Shown here: one piece after another, positions 18,330 to 27,471 of the stretch | Layout: every line of letters starts with the position of its first letter | How positions within the stretch are numbered: position 1 is the stretch's first letter | NCBI RefSeq assembly: GCF_900111025.1 | Contig: NZ_FOFN01000001.1 | Coordinates: 744,001 to 808,000 of the forward strand | Direction: 5' to 3' | DNA from: Hyunsoonleella jejuensis | GTDB taxonomy: Bacteria; Bacteroidota; Bacteroidia; Flavobacteriales; Flavobacteriaceae | DNA: 64,000 nt | Made by a program: the position numbers and the translations under genes | Notes under the pieces: model-generated | Told to the model about the DNA's origin: nothing | Database searches by the model: none | What the model saw: the letters and a program-made list of their open reading frames with translations, nothing else

Positions 18330-18746
18330 TTAGCTTCCTAATTTTATTATATTGTTTTCTTCTTTAGAGCCTGGTTTTACATCTATTATTTCTAGGATCT
18401 CCACCTTGTTTTCCCAAAGAATGGTTTCGTGTTTTTCGTTTGTTATTTTTGCCCTCACTTCCACCTGAACCATATCTGTAGAAGCGGTTTTAAAACTTTC
18501 TGCTTTCTCATTGAGCTCATTAAATTTATGTGTTGGTAAAACGCCATAAATTTCTGAATTCGTTTGTAAAACTGCAGCACCTCCATGATAGACATAATCT
18601 CCTTTCAAAAGTGTAAGACCATCATTTTGCTTTTCAGTTCGTTGATTTGTTTCCTCAGAGACGACATCTTTCGTTTCTGATTTTGAATCGTTTTTACAAC
18701 TTAAAAGTGCTGAAAAAGTTAGCACTAGAATGAATGCTTTTTTCAT
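18330..18746 (-). CDS. Uncharacterised lipoprotein within the suf operon
   Basis: 138 residues from the ATG at 18746, giving a textbook lipoprotein signal (MKKAFILVLTFSALLSC, lipid Cys17); an upstream Met at 18767 overlaps sufB and is less likely. A charged linker follows (KNDSKSETKDVVSEETNQ), then a compact ~85-residue domain (DYVYHGGAAVLQTNSEIYGVLPTH, VQVEVRAKIT, ENKVEILEI) of probable beta structure. I do not recognise the family. It starts 10 bases after the sufB stop, inside an operon for cytoplasmic Fe-S assembly, so it must be co-transcribed with it. The domain could be an OB-like fold. Confidence 0.75.
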   Translation of the reverse strand: MKKAFILVLTFSALLSCKNDSKSETKDVVSEETNQRTEKQNDGLTLLKGDYVYHGGAAVLQTNSEIYGVLPTHKFNELNEKAESFKTASTDMVQVEVRAKITNEKHETILWENKVEILEIIDVKPGSKEENNIIKLGS

Positions 18747-18756
18747 TTTTATTAAT

Positions 18757-20205
18757 TTAACCAACACTTCCTTCTAAACTTATTTCTAATAATTTTTGAG
18801 CCTCTACAGCAAATTCCATTGGGAGTTTGTTTAATACTTCCTTGCTGAAACCATTTACAATTAAAGCAATAGCTTTTTCGGTATCAATACCACGCTGGTT
18901 ACAATAAAAAATTTGATCTTCACCAATTTTACTAGTTGTAGCTTCATGCTCAATTTTAGCCGATTGATTCTTTGCCTCAATATATGGGAAGGTATGTGCA
19001 CCACATTCATTACCCATCAATAAACTATCACACTGTGAAAAATTACGAGCGTTTTCGGCTCTGGAATTTACCTGAACCAAACCACGATAGCTGTTTTGAG
19101 ATTTTCCTGCTGAAATACCTTTTGATATAATGGTTGACTTCGTATTTTTTCCTAAGTGAATCATTTTTGTTCCTGTATCAGCTTGTTGGTAATTGTTCGT
19201 TACTGCAATAGAGTAGAATTCTCCAACTGAGTTATCTCCCTTTAATACACACGATGGATATTTCCAAGTTACTGCAGAACCTGTCTCTACTTGTGTCCAA
19301 GAGATTTTTGCATTCGTTTCACATAAACCGCGTTTGGTCACAAAATTGTAAACACCACCTTTACCTTCTGCATTACCTGGAAACCAGTTTTGCACTGTGG
19401 AATATTTTATTTCAGCATCATCTAAAGCTATAAGCTCGACAACGGCAGCGTGCAATTGGTTTTCATCACGACTTGGTGCTGTACAACCTTCTAGATAACT
19501 CACATAACTACCTTCATCAGCAATTACTAAAGTTCTTTCGAATTGCCCTGTACCAGCTTGGTTTATTCTAAAATATGTTGAAAGTTCCATTGGGCATCTT
19601 ACCCCTTTTGGAATATAGCAAAACGAGCCATCACTAAATACGGCAGAGTTTAATGCTGCATAAAAATTATCTTTTCTGGGAACAACGGTGCCAATATATT
19701 TTTTAACTAGTTCAGGATGCTCTTTTATAGCTTCTGAAATACTCATGAAAATAATACCTTTTTCACCTAAAGTTTTCTTGAATGTTGTTGCTACAGAAAC
19801 CGAGTCTACAACTACATCCATAGCTACACCAGCCAATTTCTTTTGTTCATCTAACGAAATACCTAGTTTCTCAAAAGTTGCTAATAATTCTGGGTCAACT
19901 TCGTCAATACTATCATATTTGGGTTTGCTATTTGGAGCAGAGTAGTAAGAGATGCCTTGAAAATCAGGCTTTTTATAACGCACGTTTGCCCATTCTGGTT
20001 CTTCCATGTTTTCCCAAATACGAAATGCCTCCAAGCGCCATTCCGTCATCCATTCTGGTTCTTCTTTCTTTTTAGAGATAGCGCGAACAATATCTTCGTT
20101 TAAACCATTTGGAAACGTATCCGATGCAATATCTGTATAAAAACCATATTCGTATTCCTTGGTTTTTAGTTCTTCGCGAAGATCATCTTCAGTATATTTA
20201 GACAT
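18757..20205 (-). CDS. sufB: Fe-S cluster assembly protein SufB
   Basis: 482 residues, full length. SufB is the main scaffold subunit on which the nascent cluster is built from SufE-delivered sulfur. Motifs include [14 protein letters not shown], the conserved SYLEGCTAP with Cys, and [20 protein letters not shown] and [21 protein letters not shown] near the C-terminus. It starts 14 bases downstream of the sufA stop. Second gene of the operon. Confidence 0.97.
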
Positions 20206-20219
20206 AAATTTTTCTTGTT

Positions 20220-20549
20220 TTATAATGAAAACGATTCACCGCAACCGCAAGTTCTATTTGCGTTGGGATTATTAAAAACAAAACCTGTTCCGTTTAATCC
20301 ACCGGAGTATTCAAGGGTTGTTCCAATCAGGTATAAAAAACTTTTTTTGTCAACAATAATTTTCACACCATTATCTTCAAAAACCTTATCGCCTTCTTGC
20401 TGTTCTTTATCAAATTTCAAGTCGTAGGATAAACCCGAACAACCGCCACTTTTTACACCTACGCGAATATAATCGGTAGTTGCGTTGTAACCGTCATCAG
20501 CCATAAGTTCAATAACTTTTTTCTTAGCTGTATCAGAGACTTTTATCAT
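20220..20549 (-). CDS. HesB/IscA family Fe-S carrier (SufA-like)
   Basis: 109 residues, A-type carrier that receives clusters from SufBCD and passes them to targets. The three cluster-binding Cys are in the family pattern: [13 protein letters not shown] and [10 protein letters not shown]. First gene of the suf operon, with its promoter box at 20615-20622. Function as SufA is inferred from position; IscA and ErpA are close relatives. Confidence 0.93.
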
Positions 20550-20764: not shown

Positions 20765-21013
20765 TTATAACTCGTAACCTATATGGTTTAATAGGTTTGC
20801 TGTTCTTTTACTTTTGAAGTAATTTGAAAAAGAGTTCGTTTCACCGAAAGCAGAAAGATTCATAATATTACCACTATCTGTTGAAATAAAATGATTGTTG
20901 CAGCATTTGCAAACCAGCTCAGATGTGTCCTCATCGATTTTTGACACTAAGGTAAAATTATGGCCAAATATGGCGCAGAATCTATTGATAGGTGTTTCAA
21001 ACATCATTATCAT
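20765..21013 (-). CDS. Small zinc-ribbon-like protein, paralogue A
   Basis: About 82 residues from a Met at 21013, chosen because its two paralogues (26881-27132, 27208-27471) start shortly before the same motif; an in-frame Met at 21091 is possible. Shared pattern: C-x2-FGHN, then ELVCKCC (C-x2-C type), then a Thr/Asp-Ser-Gly-Asn-I/L segment. The paired Cys and the His of FGHN suggest a structural zinc site, somewhat like phage DUF1660 proteins. No transmembrane segment. Function unknown; it is isolated between the suf and mbn operons. Confidence 0.65.
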   Translation of the reverse strand: MIMMFETPINRFCAIFGHNFTLVSKIDEDTSELVCKCCNNHFISTDSGNIMNLSAFGETNSFSNYFKSKRTANLLNHIGYEL

Positions 21014-21133
21014 GCTAAATTTGGGGTATTCAAATATCGTAAATACTTTAGTTATTATCGGTAAAATGTATTTTTTTTCGACGAAATACATATTTTTTTA
21101 AGATGTATCGCTTAAAGAAGAGTTTCAATTTTA

Positions 21134-22198
21134 CTAATTGGAAAAACTTGGGTTGTTTACAAACGCATCATCAGATAATGTAAGAAGGAAGGCTTTTAAG
21201 TCTGTTTTGTCCTTTTCTGAAAGGTTCACGCCACCCTGTGCTACTTTTTTCATTAAAGGGTCTATAGTTGAAGAGTTTTTTAAGCCTTCACTGTAATGGT
21301 TAATTACTTCTTCAAGCGTATTAAATCTCCCGTCATGCATGTATGGCGCGGTAAATTTTAAGTTTCGAAGAGATGGCGATCTAAATTTTCCGTTATCAGC
21401 GGGATCTCCCGTAACAGCACCCAAGCCTAAATCGGTAAACGTTTCGTCTAAGCCGTTGTTATGAAAAGCATTGTCTGTCCATAAAGGATTTTTATCACTA
21501 CCATGGCAATGAAAACAGTCGCCTCTAGCTTCATCCATAAATACATCAAAACCATTTTGCTCCTCAGGTGTTAATTGTGCTTCACCTAAAAGAAACTTAT
21601 CAAATTTTGAGTTTGCTGAAATTAGTGTGCGCTCAAATTGCGCAATAGCCTTGGTTACTAACGTTGAGTCGATTCGTGAAGTGCCAAACGCTTGTTGAAA
21701 TAATATTGGGTACTCTACGTGTTCTTGTAGTTTTTTTTCAACCTCGGCCCAAGTGCTTTTCATTTCGCTAGGATCAGTTACAGGACTAAATGCTTGATGT
21801 TCTAGACTAAATGATTTGCCGTCCCAAAAGAATTTTTCATCGTAATTCCAAGCAAGATTAAATAATGGCATTGCGTTTCTGTTTCCCAAAGTGCCATCGA
21901 TACCATCGCTAAATCTAGCGGTATCAGTAAATGCATTTTTTGGCGCGTGGCAATCGGCACAAGCTTGTGTGTTATTTCCTGAAAGTATAGGGTCAAAAAA
22001 CAGTTTTTTCCCCAATGCAACACCTTCAGTTGTTTGAGGGTTGTTATTTGGAATTACCGGGGCTATAATATTGTCTTGAAACAGCTTGGGGATATTTAAT
22101 GCGCTTGGTGTGGGAGCATAACTTTCAGTACTTTCATTAGAGCAGGAACAGTAAAAGAAAGCCATTATAAGCATGATATGTATGTGCCATTTCTTCAA
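21134..22198 (-). CDS. MauG/MbnH-like di-haem cytochrome c peroxidase family lipoprotein
   Basis: 354 residues with a lipoprotein signal (MKKWHIHIMLIMAFFYCSC). Two haem c sites are visible: QACADCHAPKNAFTD (~80-95) and RGDCFHCHGSDKNPLW, plus the family C-terminal TAPYMHDGRFNTLEEVINHY. Members either reduce H2O2 or, as MauG and MbnH do, oxidise residues of a partner protein through a bis-Fe(IV) state. Because it is encoded 6 bases after an MbnP protein, the MbnH role (oxidising a Trp of MbnP to kynurenine) is likely but inferred. It is the last gene of a four-gene operon. Confidence 0.88.
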   Translation of the reverse strand: MKKWHIHIMLIMAFFYCSCSNESTESYAPTPSALNIPKLFQDNIIAPVIPNNNPQTTEGVALGKKLFFDPILSGNNTQACADCHAPKNAFTDTARFSDGIDGTLGNRNAMPLFNLAWNYDEKFFWDGKSFSLEHQAFSPVTDPSEMKSTWAEVEKKLQEHVEYPILFQQAFGTSRIDSTLVTKAIAQFERTLISANSKFDKFLLGEAQLTPEEQNGFDVFMDEARGDCFHCHGSDKNPLWTDNAFHNNGLDETFTDLGLGAVTGDPADNGKFRSPSLRNLKFTAPYMHDGRFNTLEEVINHYSEGLKNSSTIDPLMKKVAQGGVNLSEKDKTDLKAFLLTLSDDAFVNNPSFSN

Positions 22199-22204
22199 AA
22201 TATA

Positions 22205-22969
22205 TTACTCTACAGAAATTAAACTGAATACGTTTTGTCCGTTTTCAAACATTAAAACTTGGGCATCAAAATTAGGCATTAGCATTGTATTCAGTACATT
22301 TAAATCCCAAATGTTAGGGTTGTTAAACCATTCGGCAATATTCATTTCTATATTAATATTTGTACCATCAGAAATGGTGATTTCTCCTAAATCTATCTCA
22401 AAAAATGTATCTTGGAACTTAGGAGGGCTCACAGAATTATCTATAGCCCTAATAGCATGATAAGCATAACCAGTTTCTGTACTGGTGTTGTCTATAAATT
22501 TACCTTCCAACTGCATATAATGATAACCGCCTCCTAATTGTGAGGGCACATTCCAAGATGCAGCATTTAAATCTTGATAGTTGTTATAATTATCATCATT
22601 ATTAAAGCCAAATATAAAAGAGACGTTCTTGTAATTTCCTGATGGAATAGTGAGACTTGGGTTAAATGATAAATTTTGGCTGTTCTCTACATCAATCAAT
22701 TTATATTCGTTTAAAACGAGCTTTTCGTTATTAAAGGTTGTGAAGGTTATATCTGAAACAAGATACCGCAAGCGCTCTATACTCAATTGATCCCCTTTGG
22801 CATTGGTGAATTTTATAGTGTTAAAATCTGCTTGCGTTACGGGCATATTATCCCATGCATGAGAAAAACTGAATGAGATATTAGCTTCGGCATTGGTTGT
22901 GTTGGTGGAGTCGCTTTCACATCTCAGCAATAAAAAAGAAAGGATAAGAATATAAGTTATATGCTTCAT
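22205..22969 (-). CDS. MbnP family copper-homeostasis lipoprotein
   Basis: 254 residues with a lipoprotein signal ending LLLRC (Cys17). MbnP hallmarks: SFSHAWDNMPV, RLRYLVSDI, the fully typical GGGYHYMQLEGKF, then GYAYHAIRA, and MNIAEWFNNPNIWD at the C-terminus. Several conserved Trp and His are available for modification and metal binding. In characterised systems MbnP contains kynurenine made by MbnH and binds copper. Its ATG overlaps the stop of the preceding propeller gene by 4 bases (translational coupling), and the MauG-like gene follows directly. Confidence 0.9.
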   Translation of the reverse strand: MKHITYILILSFLLLRCESDSTNTTNAEANISFSFSHAWDNMPVTQADFNTIKFTNAKGDQLSIERLRYLVSDITFTTFNNEKLVLNEYKLIDVENSQNLSFNPSLTIPSGNYKNVSFIFGFNNDDNYNNYQDLNAASWNVPSQLGGGYHYMQLEGKFIDNTSTETGYAYHAIRAIDNSVSPPKFQDTFFEIDLGEITISDGTNINIEMNIAEWFNNPNIWDLNVLNTMLMPNFDAQVLMFENGQNVFSLISVE

Positions 22970-24315
22970 TGTAAAGGTATTTTAAATAGTAATACATCTG
23001 TAAATCCTTTGTTTGTAGTAATGTCTTGATCGGAACTACTGGATTCCCCAACAGCAATAATTGCATCGTTATTAAGCTGAATAGCGTCAAAGGCAAAATC
23101 AACATTGGACCCTCCAATTGAGGTTCGCCATTCCAAATCACCATTAGCGCCAATCTTAAAAACCCAAGCATCATTCTGACCGTTGTTTTTTGAAAGGTCT
23201 CCATCAGAACTTCTCGAACTTCCTGAAATGATAAAGCCGCCATCTGAAGCTTTTGAGACCGAACGTGCCGTATCAAAACTTGTGCCTCCATACGTTTTTG
23301 TCCACAACAGGTCGCCATTTGATGTGATTTTGGTGATGAGCACATCGGCAGCACCGTTATTACTAGAAACGTCCTTATCCTTGCTTCTAGTGTCTCCAAC
23401 GATGACAAAATTACCGTCAATAGTGCCTGTAATGCCCCAAGCTTCATCAATTTCAGAGCCGCCTACAGATTTTTCCCAGATGAGATTGCCTGTATCTGAT
23501 AGTTTCACTATCCAAAAATCGTAAGTGCCTTTGTTGTTTTTTATATCCACATCATCACTATCCGATGAGCCTACAATAATAAAATTGTTGTCCTCGGTTT
23601 CAACAACATCATAAGGTGTATCGGTAAATGTGCCACCAAAAAACTTGCTCCATTCTTTCTCACCGTTTACGTTTAGTTTTATTGCCCAATAATCACCTCC
23701 TGCATGTAATGAAGCCAATGTTTTACTGTTGCCTTGGCCTCCAGAAGCTGAGACGTCTAAAACGCCCGTCACTAAAAAGCCGCCATTATTTGTTTCTGTT
23801 AAAGCATAACCAATATCTGCTCCTAAAAACCCAAATGATTTTTGCCAAATAATATTTCCCGAAACATCCAATTTAGCAATCCAAAAATCATGTGCTCCAG
23901 CATTTTCAGAAACATCGCCATCTGTACTTTTACTATAACCCAAAATCGCGTATCCGCCATTTGTAGTTTCAATGATATCTAGCCCTCTATCGTCATCACT
24001 TCCGCCATATGTGTTTTGCCATTGCAATGCGTCATTACCATCAAATTTTAGAAGCCAAAAATCGAAAGATTCGTTTGTTTTATTTTGAATATCACCATCT
24101 AAACTTTGTGTATGGCCTAAAATGGCATAACCGCCATCTGATGTTTTAATGACTGACTGTGCGCTTTCATTTAAACTGCCTCCAAGAGTTTTTACAAACT
24201 CAGTAGATTTACTAATAATTGTATTGGAAGCATTATCATCAGTTTTCGAGCAATTTACAAGGATGAAAAAGGATATAAAAAAGAATACTACGTTATGTGA
24301 AACACTGTTTTTCAT
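22966..24315 (-). CDS. Seven-repeat beta-propeller lipoprotein
   Basis: 449 residues with a lipoprotein signal (FFILVNC). The mature part is seven copies of a ~57-residue unit with the pattern GGS-x2-D...T-x-DGG-Y/F-x-I-x-G...S-x-DGD-x4-N-x-G...D-x-W-x2-K...G-x3-W. Units start at about residues 45, 102, 160, 225, 283, 341 and 399. Seven units suggest a seven-bladed propeller. The DGD and SDxD loops look calcium- or metal-friendly. Third-party relatives are annotated only as lipoproteins or T9SS proteins. It sits between the anchor-B gene (20 bases) and mbnP (4-base overlap), so it belongs to the same surface system; the molecular role is unknown. Confidence 0.82.
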   Translation of the reverse strand: MKNSVSHNVVFFFISFFILVNCSKTDDNASNTIISKSTEFVKTLGGSLNESAQSVIKTSDGGYAILGHTQSLDGDIQNKTNESFDFWLLKFDGNDALQWQNTYGGSDDDRGLDIIETTNGGYAILGYSKSTDGDVSENAGAHDFWIAKLDVSGNIIWQKSFGFLGADIGYALTETNNGGFLVTGVLDVSASGGQGNSKTLASLHAGGDYWAIKLNVNGEKEWSKFFGGTFTDTPYDVVETEDNNFIIVGSSDSDDVDIKNNKGTYDFWIVKLSDTGNLIWEKSVGGSEIDEAWGITGTIDGNFVIVGDTRSKDKDVSSNNGAADVLITKITSNGDLLWTKTYGGTSFDTARSVSKASDGGFIISGSSRSSDGDLSKNNGQNDAWVFKIGANGDLEWRTSIGGSNVDFAFDAIQLNNDAIIAVGESSSSDQDITTNKGFTDVLLFKIPLQ

Positions 24316-24335
24316 TTGGGGTATGGTAAACGTAA

Positions 24336-25694
24336 TTACTCACTTTTCCGAACTATAAAAAGTCCACGATTTATGTCGCTAATTACAATATTTCCGCTTG
24401 TAAAATAAGGGTACACATTCCAAGCGCCATCAAAAGCGGTCGCGTCGTCTTGAGGATAGGTGTCGAAAAAACCAACTTCAGTATAAGATTTATTGTCTAT
24501 GTTACTAATATCAAGAACACGCATCCCTGCTCTATAGCTAGCTTGAAAATAGGTATCGCCTTTAACGTAGCCATTGTGGTCTATGGAAGGGTTGTTAGCT
24601 AAATAATCGAAATGGTACAAGGGATTATCTAAATCAGAAAAATCAAAAGTGATAATCCTTGTATTGTTCCCAACACGCACTTCATCTAACTCATCACCTA
24701 AAATAAAATATCGCATATCTTCTGTAAACCATCCTTGATGTGCATACCTGACATTTGGATAGGAAATCGTTGCTATTTTTATAGGATTAGATTTGTCAGT
24801 CACATCTGCAATAACTACTTCATTTTCGTTGCTTCCAATTAAAATTTCTTTACCTGTATAATCGGTATCAGGCCCTGTGTAAGTTACAACTTGCGCGTCA
24901 TGAGAATAGCCCCCTTCTGAAAAACCACCTTCAATAACTGGAGATTTAGGGTTTTGAATGTTAATAAAAATAGGTCCTCCAGCATAAGTATTGTTGCGGT
25001 TACCGCCTACGGTGTAAGCATATCCGCTATCTTCATTAATAACCACATTGTGCGCTCTACCAATATCTTCCAAACGAGCATCTGGAGTAAAAACTTCGGG
25101 CGGATTCGCAACTGTTCTAAGACGTGTTAAATCAAAAACCTGTAAACCATGACTGTCTTCACCTTGGTTGTTATCTGCCACGATAAATGCATGATTCTGG
25201 TAAACCTTTACATCTCGCCAGGGACTCGCCGTAGTCGCTGTTGGCACATTTCCCAAATACAACGGGTTTTCAATATCTGAAATATCAATAAATGCCGTAT
25301 TTCTGTCAGTAGCAATAAGGGCATATTCTTTACCTGTATCGGGATCTGTCCATCCCCAAGAATCATTTGCGGCAGTTGCTCCAAAAGTCGATAAAGGCAA
25401 ATACGCCATTAAATCGTAACCGCTACATGGATAAATATCGGCCAAACCATTTTCGCAAATAGCCAAAGGTGCACCAGCATTATTTTGGCAAATATCGCCT
25501 ATGCCGTCATTGTTGCTATCTTCTTGATTGGGGTTTGGTGCGTCGACACAGTTATCAATAGCATCAGCAACACCGTCATTGTCAGTGTCTGCAATAGCGA
25601 TACGTTCTACGGGTTCGCTATTACAAGAAGACAATAGTGATGAAATAGCAAAAGAGACAAAAAATACTTTCGCCAAGTTTTTAATAACGTTCAT
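24336..25694 (-). CDS. Choice-of-anchor B (LVIVD repeat) lipoprotein
   Basis: 452 residues, first gene of the mbn-like operon. Lipoprotein signal FAISSLLSSC. Residues ~35-72 are thrombospondin type 3-like calcium repeats (DTDNDGVADAIDNC, DSNNDGIGD). The rest is a choice-of-anchor B propeller with LVIVD-type blades: AFIDISDIENPLYLG, LQVFDLTRL, IFINIQNPKSP, VVIADVTDKSNPIKIA, MRVLDISNID, LFIVRKSE, and conserved GRAHNVVINEDSGYAYTVGG and SHDAQVVTY. These proteins are surface-exposed. Linkage to MbnP and MauG-like proteins suggests it helps bind or present a metal or redox partner; this is inference. Confidence 0.88.
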   Translation of the reverse strand: MNVIKNLAKVFFVSFAISSLLSSCNSEPVERIAIADTDNDGVADAIDNCVDAPNPNQEDSNNDGIGDICQNNAGAPLAICENGLADIYPCSGYDLMAYLPLSTFGATAANDSWGWTDPDTGKEYALIATDRNTAFIDISDIENPLYLGNVPTATTASPWRDVKVYQNHAFIVADNNQGEDSHGLQVFDLTRLRTVANPPEVFTPDARLEDIGRAHNVVINEDSGYAYTVGGNRNNTYAGGPIFINIQNPKSPVIEGGFSEGGYSHDAQVVTYTGPDTDYTGKEILIGSNENEVVIADVTDKSNPIKIATISYPNVRYAHQGWFTEDMRYFILGDELDEVRVGNNTRIITFDFSDLDNPLYHFDYLANNPSIDHNGYVKGDTYFQASYRAGMRVLDISNIDNKSYTEVGFFDTYPQDDATAFDGAWNVYPYFTSGNIVISDINRGLFIVRKSE

Positions 25695-25844: not shown

Positions 25845-26891
25845 ATGATAGAAGATAAAAACCAATCGCGGACCGATTTGAGTAATTTGGGTGAATTTGC
25901 ACTCATTGAGCACTTAACAAAACAATTTAAAATTAATCATAAATCCACCATAAAGGGTATTGGAGATGATGCCGCGGTATTAGATTTTAAGGATAAAAAA
26001 GTAGTTGTTACTACTGATCTGTTAGTTGAAGGTGTGCATTTTGATCTCAGTTATATGCCATTAAAGCATTTAGGGTATAAAGCAGTAATGGTAAATTTAT
26101 CGGATGTGTATGCTATGAATGCTGAAGCCACACAAATTACAGTTTCCATAGCGGTCTCTAACAGGTTTCCTTTAGAAGCTTTGGAAGAAATATATGCAGG
26201 GATTGAAACGGCCGCAAACTTATATAATATTGATGTTGTAGGAGGAGACACCACGTCTTCAACCAAGGGCTTGTTAATATCTGTTACTGCATTAGGTGAA
26301 GTTTCTAATACTGATGTGGTTTACAGAAGTGGGGCAAAACCTAATGATTTGTTAGTGGTTTCAGGAGATTTAGGAGCTGCCTACATGGGTTTACAGGTTT
26401 TAGAACGTGAAAAGGAGGTTTATAAGGTTAACCCCAATAGCCAACCAGATTTAGAGCCTTACACTTATATTATCGAACGACAACTGAAGCCTGAGGCTAG
26501 AAAGGATATCGTTAAACTGTTAAAAGACTTAGAGGTGAAACCTACATCAATGATTGATATTAGCGATGGTTTGTCTTCAGAAATTATTCATTTATGTACA
26601 AATAGTAAAGTAGGATGTGATTTGTATGAAAATAAAATCCCGCTGGATCCTCAAGTGATTTCTACTTGTGAAGAATTCAATATCGATAGTACTACTGTAG
26701 CGTTAAACGGAGGTGAAGATTACGAATTGTTGTTTACGATTTCCCAAGAAGATTTTCCTAAAATAAAGGCGAACCCGAATTTATCTGTCATAGGATATAT
26801 TACGGAAGTTTCTGCTGGAATGCATTTAGTGACCAGAGCCGAGACAAAAATTGAGCTAAAAGCGCAAGGATGGAAGAATTTTAATGCGTAA
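25845..26891 (+). CDS. thiL: Thiamine-phosphate kinase ThiL
   Basis: 348 residues. ThiL phosphorylates thiamine monophosphate to thiamine diphosphate, the last step of cofactor synthesis. Motifs: KGIGDDAAVLDF and TTDLLVEGVHFDL (metal/substrate), VNLSDVYAMNAE, VVGGDTTSS, ISVTALGEV, MIDISDGLSSEI and NGGEDYELLFTI. A flavobacterial N-terminal extension (QSRTDLSNLGEFALIEHLTK) precedes the AIRS fold. It is monocistronic, with no room for a TPP riboswitch because the -7 box sits at the ATG. Its stop overlaps the convergent small gene by 11 bases. Confidence 0.95.
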   Translation: MIEDKNQSRTDLSNLGEFALIEHLTKQFKINHKSTIKGIGDDAAVLDFKDKKVVVTTDLLVEGVHFDLSYMPLKHLGYKAVMVNLSDVYAMNAEATQITVSIAVSNRFPLEALEEIYAGIETAANLYNIDVVGGDTTSSTKGLLISVTALGEVSNTDVVYRSGAKPNDLLVVSGDLGAAYMGLQVLEREKEVYKVNPNSQPDLEPYTYIIERQLKPEARKDIVKLLKDLEVKPTSMIDISDGLSSEIIHLCTNSKVGCDLYENKIPLDPQVISTCEEFNIDSTTVALNGGEDYELLFTISQEDFPKIKANPNLSVIGYITEVSAGMHLVTRAETKIELKAQGWKNFNA

Positions 26892-27132
26892 AAACAAGCA
26901 ATTCAGAATTGTATTCCTTTGTCTTTAATCTAACTCTATTCTTTTTTTGGTGAATGCGTTCTAAAACGTCATTTATTTCTTTGAACTTAGGAGTAAGTTC
27001 GGTTAAGTTGCCTTTGCCGTTAGTAGTAAGCTGTTTTTTGCAGTTGCAACAGGTGTATTCTTTTACATGGTATGTTACATGTCTAGACACTTTATAGTTG
27101 TGTCCAAAAACTTTGCAATGGATATTCTTCAT
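26881..27132 (-). CDS. Small zinc-ribbon-like protein, paralogue B
   Basis: 83 residues: MKNIHCKVFGHNYKV, then YTCCNCKKQLTTNGKGNLTELTPKF, then a basic helix-rich tail (EINDVLERIHQKKNRVRLK). The Cys in HC-x2-FGHN and the TCCNC cluster suggest a zinc-binding fold. It is a close tandem paralogue of 27208-27471 (same FGHNY, KKQLTT, EINxxLERIHQ) and more distant from 20765-21013. Basic charge and size would fit a nucleic-acid- or ribosome-associated factor, but nothing proves it. Confidence 0.75.
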   Translation of the reverse strand: MKNIHCKVFGHNYKVSRHVTYHVKEYTCCNCKKQLTTNGKGNLTELTPKFKEINDVLERIHQKKNRVRLKTKEYNSELLVFTH

Positions 27133-27207: not shown

Positions 27208-27471
27208 TTAATAAATCGACGAAGCGAATGTTTTCTTCTTTAAACGATTCATTCTAGATTGATGAATACGCTCTAGAATAGCATTTATTTCTTGAAATTT
27301 CGGTGTAAGTTCAACCAAATTCCCGTTGCTGCTAGTGGTTAATTGCTTTTTACAATGTGCGCATGTATATTCTTTGACGTGGCGCGTTACTCTTTTAGTA
27401 ACTTGATAGTTGTGACCAAAAATGTTGCAATACATCTTAGGTATAAAAGCGGAGTTAGTACTTTTTTGCAT
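27208..27471 (-). CDS. Small zinc-ribbon-like protein, paralogue C
   Basis: 87 residues. YCNIFGHNYQVTKRVTRHVKEYTCAHCKKQLTTSSNGNL followed by the same EINAILERIHQ helix as paralogue B. Met13 (27435), directly before the motif, is an alternative start. Paralogue B follows 75 bases downstream on the same strand, a recent-looking tandem duplication with divergent tails. Confidence 0.75.
   Translation of the reverse strand: MQKSTNSAFIPKMYCNIFGHNYQVTKRVTRHVKEYTCAHCKKQLTTSSNGNLVELTPKFQEINAILERIHQSRMNRLKKKTFASSIY

Follow-up and report, generated by a model that had tools for sequence, protein, structure and literature searches.

A conserved four-gene operon carrying MbnP and MbnH

What does an MbnP–MbnH pair do when its genes lie beside those of two propeller proteins? 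The question is raised by a locus of Hyunsoonleella jejuensis, which we analysed within a 64,000-nucleotide stretch of contig NZ_FOFN01000001.1 (positions 744,001 to 808,000; hereafter the window). Four minus-strand open reading frames follow one another there with intergenic gaps of 20, −4 and 6 bases, encoding in order a choice-of-anchor B protein (ANB; 24336..25694), a second propeller (PROP; 22966..24315), MbnP (22205..22969) and, from a TTG start, an MbnH/MauG-like di-haem enzyme (MbnH; 21134..22198). A first-pass annotation had reported this set as an operon of four lipoproteins without methanobactin genes, and we confirmed its gene set, coordinates and gaps. No MbnB-family gene (PF05114) was found in the genome, so the locus does not qualify as a methanobactin operon; MbnP–MbnH pairs are described far beyond methanobactin makers in parts of PMC3621798. 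On one flank lies a SufA-type iron–sulphur (Fe-S) gene (20220..20549, minus strand; PF01521) and on the other a thiL-type gene (25845..26891, plus strand; AIRS, PF00586).

PF20243, the family of MbnP, was matched in 99 of 199 sampled Flavobacteriaceae genomes, nearly one per genus. We examined 81 loci, namely the window and 80 fetched regions picked mainly for lower-scoring PF20243 matches. The window MbnP belongs to a GGGYH subfamily that we call type B (score above 150 against the protein P0003), the other version being type A. Type-B MbnP and PROP occurred together at 60 of the 81 loci, and all 60 had the order ANB-PROP-MbnP-MbnH, with ANB sometimes repeated; of the other 21, 19 had a type-A MbnP and two were the halves of one operon split over two contigs (genome G124). 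The suf genes were found in the region at 59 of the 60 type-B loci and thiL at 53. A separate scan of named genomes returned 464 relatives, and the best 80 of these, which overlap partly with the genomes of the first set, all kept the order, with SufA in the stretch in 73 and ThiL in 76. These 80 came from Algibacter, Flavivirga, Winogradskyella, Tamlana, Hyunsoonleella and similar genera, and included one metagenome-assembled genome labelled Rhodobacteraceae. Because the flanks are shared, the conservation counts are not independent events. With types A and B pooled, median intergenic distances were 6 bases (ANB-PROP), 4 bases (PROP-MbnP) and 6 bases (MbnP-MbnH), against 130 bases from the operon to sufA, indicating that the four genes are one operon, probably separate from suf. 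The operon is well conserved in Flavobacteriaceae, where numerous marine species have it, and is a variant of the MbnP–MbnH kind; we found no description of it in the literature searched.

The MbnP–MbnH pair behaves as an exchangeable cassette

Across the 199 genomes, PROP (at least 404 bits) was present in 99, all with ANB, and six more had ANB without such a PROP, giving ANB in 105. Type-B MbnP was present in 61 genomes, every one of which also had PROP and ANB. This co-occurrence of type-B MbnP with PROP (61 with both, 0 with type-B MbnP only, 38 with PROP only, 100 with neither; Fisher 3e-25, uncorrected for kinship) exceeds chance. At ANB/PROP loci without type B, the slot was either empty of the pair or held a type-A pair. 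On a PROP tree of 99 loci, version B was present at 61, version A at 6 and neither at 32; the 32 cassette-less loci form one clade (support 0.984), and the distribution needs 5 changes compared with a shuffled mean of 32.7, some other nodes of this tree being weak (0.13 to 0.49). The MbnH proteins fall into clades along the same division, the six type-A proteins of the slot together (0.988) and the 61 type-B proteins together (0.96). The change count and the separate clades show that the two genes move or disappear together.

Type-A pairs in L041, L108, L109 and L110 lie outside the slot, flanked by a small protein with Cys (c17) and one of CDLCGC type (c25); those in L092 and L101 come after a gene (c19) judged receptor-like by eye.

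MbnH is a di-haem enzyme of the MauG/MbnH superfamily

MbnH matched PF03150 (CCP_MauG), and its best PDB match was 6e1c (E 9e-53), listed as Di-heme enzyme, which we take to be MbnH; against TIGR04039 its 256.3 bits fall under the cut-off of 362.85. Residue counts for type-B MbnP and MbnH are out of 125 sequences, and all residue coordinates are on the minus strand. The haem motif CADCH (21947..21961) keeps C80, C83 and H84 in 125/125, and the second, CFHCH (21503..21517), keeps C228, C231 and H232 in 124, with one gap. Tyr302 (21293..21295; 124/125, one gap) aligns with a Tyr of 6e1c and with a Met of the peroxidase 1iqc, and the Tyr at this position is the haem ligand in MauG. The two CXXCH motifs and the Tyr at the peroxidase Met position place the protein in the MauG/MbnH superfamily.

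The type-B MbnH might instead be an ordinary surface di-haem peroxidase removing H2O2, with the operon serving against redox stress close to the genes for Fe-S assembly. In favour of such a role, the genome has no other CCP_MauG match and the suf operon is adjacent, but we consider this the least probable of the readings weighed here, given Tyr302 in place of Met, the best match to 6e1c, the constant company of MbnP in the loci examined, and the distance to suf set against the 4 to 6 bases within the operon.

Type-B MbnPs mostly lack the WxW motif and share an additional His

The window MbnP scored 88.8 bits against PF20243 (cut-off 27) and its predicted fold matches that of MbnP (7l6g), so the earlier assignment stands at the level of fold and family, as does that of MbnH. 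TIGR04052, the WxW copper-binding model, was not matched by the window MbnP; 44 of 45 type-B MbnPs gave no match and one a weak match. All 22 type-A MbnPs matched at E 0.001, the one type-A score listed (51.6) being itself under the cut-off of 140. In place of canonical WxW the window MbnP has WxV. Its Trp139 (22553..22555), at the first-Trp position in an alignment to the type-A profile, is Trp in 102 and Phe in 23 of the 125, while the second Trp is Val in 114, leaving WxW in 11. The MbnH haem residues are retained alongside Phe, and the replacement accounts for seven changes on one tree. His150 of the GGGYH motif (22520..22522) is present in 125/125, and the type-A rows listed have K, I, R or Q at its position. 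His171 (22457..22459), the family His, is also present in 125/125, is invariant in 22 type-A rows and aligns with a His in 7l6g. Trp221 (22307..22309) was found in every type-B MbnP counted (125/125).

The first-pass annotation had noted that MbnH is known to oxidize a Trp of MbnP to kynurenine for copper binding, and had suggested Trp oxidation here too. In this canonical chemistry Trp139 would be converted and, with two His, would bind Cu(I) as in CorA/MopE, the propellers being bystanders or docking partners. The window MbnP does retain Trp139, and its two conserved His are reminiscent of the ligands in CorA. However, because WxW is so scarce, Phe stands in for the first Trp with the haem residues kept, and TIGR04052 goes almost unmatched, kynurenine formation is not a safe transfer to the type-B subfamily; the claim is not supported as stated, and we regard the canonical chemistry as doubtful here.

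Relative to methanotroph MbnP–MbnH (the metallo-mystery pair, TIGR04052/TIGR04039), the operon has in common the adjacent genes, the 7l6g fold and an MbnH-type di-haem enzyme whose ligand position is occupied by Tyr, but it differs in mostly lacking WxW, in matching neither model above its cut-off, in having no MbnB-family gene, and in its extra invariant His150 and two propeller partners. CorA/MopE with CorB/SACCP likewise place a surface-associated partner with two conserved His beside a di-haem MauG-like enzyme. For CorA, PMC3912023 gives Kyn62, His64, His114 and a WxH motif, whereas in this operon the distance from Trp139, which some relatives have replaced, to His150 is 11 residues.

In other families, L152, L153 and L156 encode a GGGYH-like MbnP and MbnH without ANB or PROP, and the first WxW Trp is apparently missing there too.

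ANB is a probable four-His metalloprotein

ANB scored 537 bits against TIGR04312 (cut-off 100) and is thus a choice-of-anchor B protein, a phrase for which the literature searched gave no match. The strands of its AlphaFold model (predicted local distance difference test score 93.2) fit seven four-stranded blades, and PROP has seven G-headed repeats with an invariant or near-invariant G at 45, 104, 162, 227, 285, 343 and 401, so both are propellers, ANB being predicted to be seven-bladed like the PROP already annotated. PROP matched CylK and Bagel propeller entries in a profile search and had no Pfam match above cut-off. ANB also bears the thrombospondin type 3 (TSP3)-like linker noted earlier (residues 36-71, 25482..25589), the best stretch by PF02412 (E 5e-6) being 36-57 and the TSP3-type stretch by NCBIfam 35-71; 25 of 133 ANBs carry the motif, ANB residue counts being based on the 133 of 138 that passed a length filter.

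Four His residues, His215 (25050..25052), His265 (24900..24902), His319 (24738..24740) and His373 (24576..24578), were each present in 133/133 ANBs and in 15/15 from other families. In the predicted model each stands at the start of one strand in blades 3, 4, 5 and 6, respectively, and the LVIVD-type repeat suggests that these are inner strands facing the propeller axis. We take ANB to be a probable four-His metalloprotein. Foldseek ranked the Sphingobium TCM1 phosphotriesterase 5hrm first (5e-12; next protein 2e-9); a second aligner put it level with WD40 propellers, though no other of the 50 rows listed had so long an alignment or so high an identity (336 residues, 16%), and in a profile search it was the top row but weak (E 0.02). 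By its published title, 5hrm has a binuclear metal centre in a seven-bladed propeller; the gene context of ANB differs, and only one His is aligned, and weakly, His215 lying opposite a His of GGFHSVV in a stretch of only 3.8 bits. SBP56, the propeller protein of methanethiol oxidase, gave no row among the ANB profile matches or the fold-search rows listed, no search having been aimed at it. The closest precedent in gene content is the methanethiol oxidase operon mtoX-SCO1/SenC-mauG, for which parts of PMC5739008 describe a four-His copper enzyme, a copper-handling partner and a MauG-like gene together; this may serve as an analogy only, as ANB has no SBP56 sequence match in the PDB search and MbnP stands in the place of SCO1.

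At PROP residues 142, 166 and 168, His is found in at least 93% of cassette-less genomes (L112-L145) and is mostly not found where MbnP–MbnH is present; these three His are possibly a replacement metal site, or merely a habit of one clade.

The operon products are likely lipoproteins with signs of surface export

MbnP (60/60), MbnH (59/60) and PROP (98/99; Cys22 in the window) share a conserved N-terminal Cys, and the window ANB has a lipoprotein-type N-terminus; the earlier description of the products as lipoproteins is thus likely to be correct. A strict lipobox pattern, which misses part of each of the four families, was matched by 59/138 ANBs, 79/99 PROPs, 74/83 MbnPs and 61/84 MbnHs. Where the ANB of a relative has no lipobox, it often bears a type IX secretion system (T9SS) tail, such sorting tails being present in 16 of 58 selected ANBs, and the two kinds of signal together suggest that ANB is located in the outer envelope or at the surface. 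At least three acidic residues follow the Cys in 62% of the 74 lipobox MbnPs (types pooled), resembling the export signal described in PMC5080379. In another family of the phylum, an MbnP-family protein with a WGW motif (L154:4877-5839), beside MbnH-like genes, has a T9SS-like C-terminal tail, which supports the location of MbnP at the surface.

In L033, L038, L058, L059 and L062, three or four ANB genes lie in tandem upstream of PROP; some of these arrays are cut by the region end, and several copies have a T9SS-like tail at their end and no lipobox.

The first-pass annotation had suggested a surface capture system. In a version modelled on BtuG, ANB and PROP would bind a metal complex or an organic ligand and pass it on, with MbnP–MbnH liberating or storing the metal. 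The surface-export signs fit this part of the suggestion, and BtuG2 is among the ANB Foldseek rows, but at rank 44 and as merely one of many near-tied propellers. A capture system would be expected to include a transporter, and in the window the interval from thiL to sufA has neither a TonB receptor nor a transporter of another kind; capture is therefore not supported as stated, and we hold the BtuG-like version to be improbable.

Proposed model: a surface propeller pair joined by a copper-handling cassette

We favour, with a probability of roughly 0.4, an envelope operon, inherited vertically, that joins an exchangeable MbnP–MbnH cassette for copper handling and maturation to a surface ANB-PROP pair. 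The products would be exported to the outer surface, where MbnP would bind Cu(I) via His150 and His171. MbnH, activated by H2O2, would oxidize an MbnP Trp to mature the site, this being Trp139 if present and otherwise most likely Trp221. MbnP might then store metal for the propeller pair or deliver it there, and ANB could have a catalytic role.

Several results weigh against this proposal. At 32 loci ANB and PROP occur without the cassette, their four His unchanged and their Trp residues nearly so, which means that ANB can do without MbnP; no Trp loss was found in the ANB or PROP of these genomes. Type-A pairs also exist at other places with no propellers, PROP being absent from 29 genomes that have MbnP, and the operon genes include no known copper gene or transporter. 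The position of the operon may be shared through plain synteny, the whole thiL-suf block being conserved. Finally, gene-order conservation is strong within Flavobacteriaceae, so that the first-pass annotation passes the first of the refutation tests it had set itself, but none of 19 usable regions outside the family (7 with MbnP, 12 with ANB) held both ANB and MbnP. That interpretation is overall partly supported.

A more speculative extension, which we think rather unlikely, is that GGGYH MbnPs escaped kynurenine altogether: a gained His150 would serve as Cu(I) ligand, so that the WxW Trp could change to Phe about seven times on one tree, while MbnH was kept to modify Trp221 or a propeller residue, which would give a surface metalloprotein complex a new protein-derived cofactor. 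Replacement of the supposed target Trp with retention of the enzyme amounts to a natural experiment on MbnH chemistry, and comparing Trp139 with Phe139 species can therefore show the real MbnH target. A loosely described metallo-mystery pair thereby becomes a testable system, and choice-of-anchor B proteins are pointed to as likely four-His surface metalloproteins.

Small genes around the operon

Three small Cys-rich proteins (20765-21091, 26881-27132 and 27208-27471) surround the operon and are alike by eye, with an HN...C..C motif. The first two had no Pfam match above cut-off, and relatives of the last two were found at 39 of the 81 loci. In many of the suf operons a small lipoprotein-like gene (18330-18767 in the window) stands between sufB and sufC; its family is present at 56 of the 81 loci.
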